This document shows positions 37,288 to 37,931 of a DNA stretch of 64,000 bases, piece by piece. This DNA is from Woeseia oceani. GTDB taxonomy: Bacteria; Pseudomonadota; Gammaproteobacteria; Steroidobacterales; Woeseiaceae. The translations under genes and the position numbers were made by a program. How positions within the stretch are numbered: the stretch's first letter is position 1; every line of letters begins with the position of its first letter. The stretch is taken from contig NZ_CP016268.1 in the NCBI RefSeq assembly GCF_001677435.1, forward strand, positions 2,779,001 through 2,843,000, in the 5' to 3' direction. Below the pieces are notes generated by a model. The model was not told the DNA's origin, searched no databases, and worked only from the letters and a program-made list of their open reading frames with translations.

Positions 37288-37434
37288 ATGTCGATGCGTT
37301 CATTGCTCGCCTTTAACTTTCAGCACTGGATCGACGAACATCGTCACCTCTTGAAACCACCGGACTGTAATCAACAGGTCTTCGAAGAAAATGACCTCAT
37401 CGTCATGGTGGTTGGCGGCCCGAACGCGCGCTGA
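37288..37434 (+). pseudogene. 3-hydroxyanthranilate 3,4-dioxygenase, N-terminal fragment
   Basis: Only the first 48 codons (46 from the second ATG at 37294) of 3-hydroxyanthranilate dioxygenase remain. They read like the start of a normal gene: GGAGG at 37283, then [17 protein letters not shown] and [13 protein letters not shown], which is highly characteristic of this non-haem iron dioxygenase. The frame stops (TGA 37432) exactly where the iron-binding part (T-D-Y-H and on) should begin, so all iron ligands are missing. The sequence then continues into a kynureninase C-terminus. A functional enzyme is about 175 residues, so this copy cannot be active. Confidence 0.85.
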
Positions 37435-37931
37435 TGCTGTGGCCGGGCGTACAGCATTACAGGTGCCGGGCATACGTGCTATCGGCGAATTGGCGCGAGG
37501 AATCCCGCTTTCGCATGGAGCCGCAGTTTGCGCCGGCGAATACCGCCGAGCTTTGGCAGCTCAGCAACCCGCCGATCCTGTCGCTCGCGCCGGTCAGCGC
37601 ATCGCTGTCCATTTTTCAGGAAGCGGGTATGGCCAACCATGGTGACAAATCCGTGCGTCTGACCGCCTGCCTGGAGTACCTGCTGGAAGCGAAGTTCGGC
37701 AACCGAACAGTGTCCATGACTCCCGCCGATGCCCGCGGCTGCCCGATGTCATTGCAGGCGCGCAACCCGGAACTCGATGCGCGCGCGGGGTACGAACGAC
37801 TGCAAACGATGAACGTCATCACCGACTGGCGTGAACCGGATGTGATGCGCGTAGCACCCGCCCCCTTGTACAGCAGCTATGCCGGTGTGCATGAACCTGC
37901 AGAACGGTTGAGCCAGGCGGTCAGGGGATGA
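37434..37931 (+). pseudogene. Kynureninase, C-terminal fragment
   Basis: From about 37491 the translation matches the last third of kynureninase: ESRFRMEPQFAP, WQLSNPPILSLAPVSASL, VRLTACLEYLL, MTPADARGCPMSLQ and DWREPDVMRVAPAPLYSSY. A full enzyme is about 420 residues; only about 145 remain, and the PLP lysine and most of the active site are absent. The 57 bp from 37434 to 37490 match neither parent clearly. The ATG at 37434 overlaps the TGA of the dioxygenase fragment by chance of the junction, while the stop still overlaps the next ATG (ATGA), the original operon spacing. The two fragments together imply loss of roughly 1.1-1.2 kb. Confidence 0.85.

Follow-up and report, generated by a model that had tools for sequence, protein, structure and literature searches.

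A partly deleted kynurenine operon in Woeseia oceani, probably a redundant native set in mid-erosion

In the genome of Woeseia oceani, the beginning of a 3-hydroxyanthranilate dioxygenase gene (hao) runs into the end of a kynureninase gene (kynU). Does this short form reflect real gene loss, and what would such a loss mean for the kynurenine pathway? The locus lies in the window, which is the whole stretch of 64,000 nucleotides that was analysed. An earlier note on this DNA explained the arrangement by a single internal deletion of about 1.1-1.2 kb, with misassembly as the main alternative. The explanation favoured here, which is considered quite probable, is that the kynurenine operon native to the family (Woeseiaceae) and inherited vertically in it has become a redundant, partly deleted pseudo-operon and is seen in mid-erosion. 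That the locus is a real decaying remnant is held with high confidence.

The features of the locus are collected in Table 1. The names ksgA, apaG and apaH are putative assignments from the sequence, as is the name folA for the gene at the right anchor. Homologues of the first three were detected in relatives by tblastn, and several family members have a folA-like match close to apaH or to the native genes. The order ksgA-apaG-apaH-RidA-hao is also that of a locus from the same genus (L121). The strong ribosome site described previously is present as GGAGG at 37283-37287, and it precedes the ATG at 37294 from which the hao stub starts; a second in-frame ATG is located at 37288. The stub comprises 46 codons (37294-37431; 46-48 had been counted) and is closed by a TGA at 37432-37434. 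In a profile search it aligns to positions 5-47 of the 178 positions of NF009763, and it is 89% identical to L121 over 46 residues. Its TGA overlaps the ATG (37434) of a 165-codon frame, as TGATG, and the TGA of this frame overlaps the ATG of kmo, as ATGA, which is the coupling reported in the earlier note. The end of kynureninase retained in this frame (piece C; about 145 residues had been estimated) aligns to positions 259-398 of the 400 positions of TIGR01814.

Table 1. Features at and around the eroded kynurenine locus (positions in the window)
Feature	Position	Strand	Basis or remark
ksgA	34666-35436		upstream of apaG and apaH
apaG	35550-35936		between ksgA and apaH
apaH	35960..36772	+	ORF; left anchor of the conserved site
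RidA-family gene	36859..37278	+	PF01042, E 1.8e-26; open, constrained
hao stub (3-hydroxyanthranilate dioxygenase)	37288..37434	+	NF009763, E 1.6e-17
join 1, hao to kynU	37428..37431		comparison with L121 and L124, and lengths
kynureninase piece A	37428..37460	+	frame f0 match to relatives
165-codon open frame across pieces A-C	37434..37931	+	ORF list
kynureninase piece B	37460..37498	+	QVPGIRAIGELAR matches QVLDMRAICAMAR; other frame than piece A
join 2 within kynU, piece B to piece C	37492..37499		291 vs 75 bp, and alignment
kynureninase piece C, last ~143 residues, decaying	37494..37931	+	TIGR01814, E 1.4e-29
kmo (kynurenine 3-monooxygenase), 457 codons open	37928..39301	+	6fox, E 1.2e-102
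folA-like gene (right-hand anchor)	39291..39782	-	ORF

Neither of the two central genes reaches the score of a functional enzyme. The hao stub has 64 bits against NF009763, far under the curated cut-off of 220, and its match ends at position 47-48 of 178, so that essential parts are lost. The kynU remnant has 103 bits against TIGR01814, for which the curated cut-off is 246.4, and it is devoid of profile positions 1 to about 255 except for about 23 residues in pieces A and B. Each enzyme is without most of its length, and this locus alone cannot complete the kynurenine pathway, as had been stated before. The flanking genes were rightly described as intact, since both reading frames are open. 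The solved KMO 6fox could be aligned over residues 6-451 of the 457 of the kmo product, a full-length match; this kmo is a full-length homologue of kynurenine 3-monooxygenase, with activity predicted. For the RidA-family gene, the nearest solved relative is 2-aminomuconate deaminase 6izh (E 3.4e-27).

Comparison with relatives, which the earlier note had proposed, reveals what is missing. All five fetched relatives that span the site (L121-L125, from genomes G001, G004, G002, G014 and G012, with G001 as the one same-genus genome drawn) have the order RidA-hao-ACMSD-kynU-kmo, and the contig of G001 stops 58 codons into kmo. In L121, the gene without counterpart in the window matches the solved ACMSD 2wm1 (E 1.4e-137), KynU matches 7s3v (E 3.8e-105) and HAO matches 1yfu (E 3e-51). 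Intact homologues are thus found at the same place, followed by kmo and with the anchors ksgA-apaG-apaH shared with L121, and the fusion of hao to kynU through loss by deletion stands. The loss had also been called recent, which holds in one sense only: it post-dates the split from G001, where hao, ACMSD and kynU are whole. ACMSD is not universal in the family, because some members (e.g., L045, L046, L052 and L109) have a compact hao-kynU-kmo form in which kynU directly follows hao and leaves no room for it. Of the 61 family genomes, 40 match an ACMSD query; in 20, the query's own genome among them, the match is at 72-100% and spans most of the query. The same query gave no ACMSD match anywhere in the W. 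oceani assembly, in which two other Amidohydro_2 genes exceed the cut-off of that broader family.

The distance from hao start to kmo start is 634 bp in the window and 2810 (L121), 2805 (L124), 2805 (L125) and 2831 bp (L123) in the relatives, where some start positions were extrapolated from the first aligned residue. The total loss is therefore about 2.17 kb, including the whole ACMSD gene, and it exceeds the earlier estimate because the relatives have ACMSD between hao and kynU. The model of a single deletion also had to be dropped, because the bridge between the two fragments, about 57 bp that the earlier note could not assign, consists of kynureninase sequence in two reading frames. In piece A (frame f0), 10 residues match LxLLPGVQYY of the relatives (LMLLPGVQYY in L124). 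Piece B (frame f2) reads QVPGIRAIGELAR, corresponding to QVLDMRAICAMAR in L121, and after it frame f0 returns as REESRFRMEP. Piece A is thus followed by a small indel that shifts the frame, then by piece B, join 2 and the kynU tail; at least two deletions took place in addition to the small frameshift. ACMSD was also considered as the source of the bridge, and six-frame searches matched kynU instead. At join 1, 1955-1957 bp are absent. Four bases at this join would fit both partners as these read in L121 and L124, and with this putative overlap, judged from the letters of the relatives, a deletion between short repeats is plausible. From LxLLPGVQ to the RF of the tail, 291 bp are found in L121-L124 and 75 bp here, a net loss of 216 bp. 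Join 2 takes out the stretch with SYKYLN, whose lysine is taken to be the PLP-binding lysine of kynureninase.

Does what remains still evolve as a gene? In a relative-rate test against the same-genus sister G001 with 11 outgroups (binomial p), the kynU tail has 17 private amino-acid changes here and 4 in the sister (p 0.0072). Its private base changes at the three codon positions number 14, 19 and 5 here and 9, 8 and 16 in the sister, so that positions 1 and 2 against 3 stand at 33:5 and 17:16, respectively (Fisher p 0.0016). No excess is seen for RidA (6 v 8) or for the control genes apaG (2 v 4), apaH (15 v 16) and ksgA (8 v 9); surA and pdxA had no outgroups and so were outside this comparison. 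The hao stub on its own (3 v 1) is not significant. For kmo, 0 private changes were counted here and 7 in the sister (p 0.016), over 58 codons at the end of the sister's draft contig. A further comparison used columns in which 90% or more of the 25 closest sequences agree. The kynU tail departs at 6 of 50 (mean of the others 2.9%, rank 2 of 26), the hao stub at 2 of 26 (tied rank 1 of 26), kmo at 5 of 161 (others 2.6%, rank 7 of 26) and RidA at 3 of 65 (rank 4 of 11); in these tests, the RidA query began two codons past the likely start. Over all sequences, the tail is changed at 4 of 38 conserved columns (rank 5 of 81) and kmo at 2 of 132 (rank 50 of 85). A terminal-branch tree test of the kynU tail against kmo did not single out this genome (ratio 1.45, rank 11 of 31). 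Relaxed selection on the remainder, as expected of a pseudogene, is thus seen in the relative-rate and codon-position tests: the kynU tail has lost constraint, and RidA and the comparable 58-codon part of kmo have not.

The same data bear on the idea that selection maintains the short kynU and hao products as new small proteins with a function. In its favour, both frames are open, with plausible starts. However, most of each enzyme is absent, conserved columns are being lost in the tail and in the stub, the private changes of the tail fall mainly at codon positions 1 and 2, and the join is absent from every other locus in the table of relatives' loci. This idea is hardly credible.

The genome was also searched for full kynureninase and dioxygenase genes elsewhere, as suggested in the earlier note, and the supposed absence of other kynurenine genes was refuted. 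A full kynureninase (kynU2), a full hao (hao2) and a second kmo (kmo2) lie consecutively at C1:1012336-1015502. The kynureninase scores 452 bits (cut-off 246) and the dioxygenase 274 bits (cut-off 220), and kmo2 was matched at 39% identity. Around this set are nadA, an NrtR-like gene, an aldehyde dehydrogenase, a LysR-type regulator, an aspartate dehydrogenase and a DapA-family gene. The NrtR-like gene matches PF21906 (NrtR_WHD) and is far under the cut-off of NF050029 (62 v 400 bits). TDO is encoded elsewhere in the genome (PF03301 above cut-off; with TIGR03036, a partial frame reaches 357 of 390.7 bits). L-aspartate oxidase (nadB) was not found in this genome, since its sole match is the succinate dehydrogenase flavoprotein (953 bits for TIGR01816 against 357 for nadB). 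The earlier note, then, had missed ACMSD, this second set and, as described below, the erosion that this site has undergone repeatedly among relatives.

With the second set known, the possibility of an assembly or sequencing error can be weighed. The true operon would be intact and the short form would come from a collapsed or misjoined contig; a second hao-kynU-kmo set, being a distant homologue, might in principle confuse the assembler. However, the genome is a single contig of 4,059,891 bases with an estimated completeness of 100%, the kynU tail is of native type and only 45% identical to the second-set kynureninase, two separate joins and a frameshift would be required, and ACMSD is missing from the whole assembly. 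Most tellingly, the tail itself shows lost constraint, which an error of joining would not produce. Misassembly is therefore very improbable and is no longer the main alternative.

Where did the second set come from? Among 61 family genomes, the second type, defined as at least 70% identity to the second-set kynureninase, was found in 12, namely W. oceani (G000) and 11 genomes of a genus labelled g10. The native type, 42-51% identical to the second, is present in 40 of the 61, four of them partial. With the W. oceani remnant counted as absent, only G055 has both types, and this near mutual exclusion has a Fisher p of 8e-6, uncorrected for kinship. In the kynU2 tree, G000 is placed among g10 sequences, and G058, G046 and G029 split off on the opposite side (support 99); the exact placement of G000 among g10 is weakly supported (36). 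In the KsgA tree, G046 and G029 fall within g10 (support 99), and a split with support 100 separates G000 and G001 from all others. This conflict over G000 supports horizontal exchange. Plain identity was also tried as an argument for transfer and was rejected. Identities of G000 to the 11 g10 genomes are 62-67% for KsgA and 70-86% for kynU2, and many pairs within g10 show a like contrast, with KsgA at 59-65% yet kynU2 at 77-87%, or at 69-75% where one of the two is G058, G046 or G029. A foreign phylogeny, as expected in a displacement, may be indicated by the tree conflict and the narrow distribution; identity levels alone do not support it. G001 lacks the second set, but its genome is an 89% complete draft, so this lack is weak evidence. 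Taken together, the sequences suggest that the second set was likely, though not provenly, acquired horizontally, and the donor was probably g10 or a donor shared with it. A plasmid origin was considered, and no near match was found in the plasmid collection.

Some further features of the second locus and its neighbours may be mentioned. Beside the nrtR-nadA-hao2-kynU2-kmo2 block, a tRNA-Arg(tcg) is followed by a 178-bp tandem array (L011:1627-2344, i.e., C1:1007626-1008343) of 3.7 copies with 96% matches. Four copies of the 19 bases that end the tRNA are present, one of them in the tRNA itself, and neither such a match nor a tRNA was found in L148-L151, L153 or L155. The array could be an integration scar. 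Between nadA and hao2, a frame on the minus strand (L011:5372-6088) matches part of the LysR substrate-binding domain (PF03466, E 3.9e-11) and may be a broken regulator. In G060, which belongs to another genus, a 3.4-kb contig (L155, G060:C240:1-3393) carries nadA and an NrtR-like gene, both at 98-99% identity to their G000 counterparts, which may reflect recent transfer or bin contamination. A nadA of this type is present in only 21 of the 61 family genomes and absent from the draft of G001. In some of the family genomes, de novo NAD synthesis might depend on the kynurenine route alone. An open-access literature search found nothing linking kynureninase with Woeseia or kynurenine with Woeseiaceae, and neither tryptophan nor kynuren occurs in the available part of the main text of PMC12175321 or PMC7082342.

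The state of the native site in other family genomes was surveyed downstream of apaH by matches to the native genes and folA, with RidA left out. A complete hao-kynU-kmo followed by folA is seen in G054. In G026 (L195), G057 (L027) and contig L058, kmo alone directly follows apaH, with 12-53 bp between the matches, and in G035 the orphan kmo downstream of apaH (L194:2140-2802) has lost residues 76-297 or so in frame. In G055, kynU comes directly after apaH and runs off one contig end, and kynU followed by folA is found on another. Only 67-112 bp lie between the apaH and folA matches in G050, G042, G046 and G058. No native gene was matched in the 3.9 and 4.9 kb between apaH and folA of G016 and G029, nor in 5.7 kb of G038, where folA was not reached. 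In G059, the second-type set itself is located 2.6 kb downstream of apaH. Among the 11 g10 genomes that carry the second type, the site was fetched in all but G010 and G052; of these 9, G055 alone has a native-type kynurenine gene within the part fetched. Piecemeal erosion thus recurs at the same site across relatives, in intact, partly lost and fully lost states. G026, G035 and G057 have lost native genes although they are without the second type, so redundancy with the second set is not the only route to loss.

These orphan genes are relevant to another interpretation, in which kmo and RidA are kept by selection. The native KMO would feed KynU2 and HAO2, and the remnants would carry ribosomes to kmo via the stop-start overlaps. 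In line with this, kmo shows ordinary conservation in both column sets and has no private change in the 58 codons comparable with the sister, a lone kmo directly after apaH is found in G026, G057 and L058, and the TGATG and ATGA overlaps link stub, remnant frame and kmo. However, kmo2 is already in the genome, the 58-codon comparison rests on the end of the sister's draft contig, and the orphan kmo of G035 has itself lost its middle. The open tail is also expected by chance. Under decay, 0.6-0.8 stops are expected in it, the probability of no stop is 0.46-0.55 and the chance of a return to frame is about 1 in 3; its openness is not significant, and selection holding the remnant open is not supported. 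Such maintenance is possible but somewhat doubtful. A chimeric pathway in the full sense, with the native kmo and possibly RidA working with KynU2 and HAO2 and with remnants that survive only as a coupled leader for kmo, is rather unlikely; lone kmo genes after loss of their neighbours recur in at least three other family genomes.

Under the favoured explanation, a redundant native operon in mid-erosion, the following course of events may be proposed. The lineage would have gained the second set near nadA, complete with hao, kynU and kmo, probably through horizontal transfer from g10 or a shared donor, and this set would have made the native one redundant. A deletion of about 1.96 kb would have eliminated ACMSD and brought hao up against kynU; the kynU remnant would have suffered a frameshift and another, smaller deletion, in whichever order. 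RidA and kmo would be open either because they still work with other enzymes or because they have not yet been hit. On gene content (TDO and the second set, without ACMSD), tryptophan would still be processed via TDO, KMO, KynU2 and HAO2, from kynurenine to 3-hydroxyanthranilate and beyond, and not via the decarboxylase branch, so that the product would go to quinolinate and NAD instead of the 2-aminomuconate branch. Loss of the ACMSD branch seems to have occurred and would steer tryptophan carbon to quinolinate and NAD. The locus represents a clear half-way stage of pathway replacement, in which the second set is complete and the native one is interrupted at its centre. There is also a practical aspect, in that automatic annotation could list a non-working kynureninase and dioxygenase here.

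How does this locus compare with known systems? One is the 2-aminomuconate-branch operon with 3-HAO, ACMSD, KynU, KMO and a deaminase. L121 and other relatives have all five genes, in order, whereas in the window ACMSD is absent and hao and kynU are fragmentary. Another is the NAD-synthesis cluster of bacteria, in which NrtR is a regulator. The second set is likewise near an NrtR-like gene and nadA, here and in three of the five fetched g10 loci (L148, L150 and L153), and neither gene was found within the fetched stretch of L149 and L151. The event itself is gene decay of an ordinary, known kind, and only the half-way stage at which it is observed sets it apart. A known concept is xenologous (orthologous) gene displacement, after which the native copy decays, and the situation in W. 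oceani resembles it in the differently related second set, the decaying native set and the near mutual exclusion of the two types. It differs in that a half-way state is seen here, with two of the five native genes still open.
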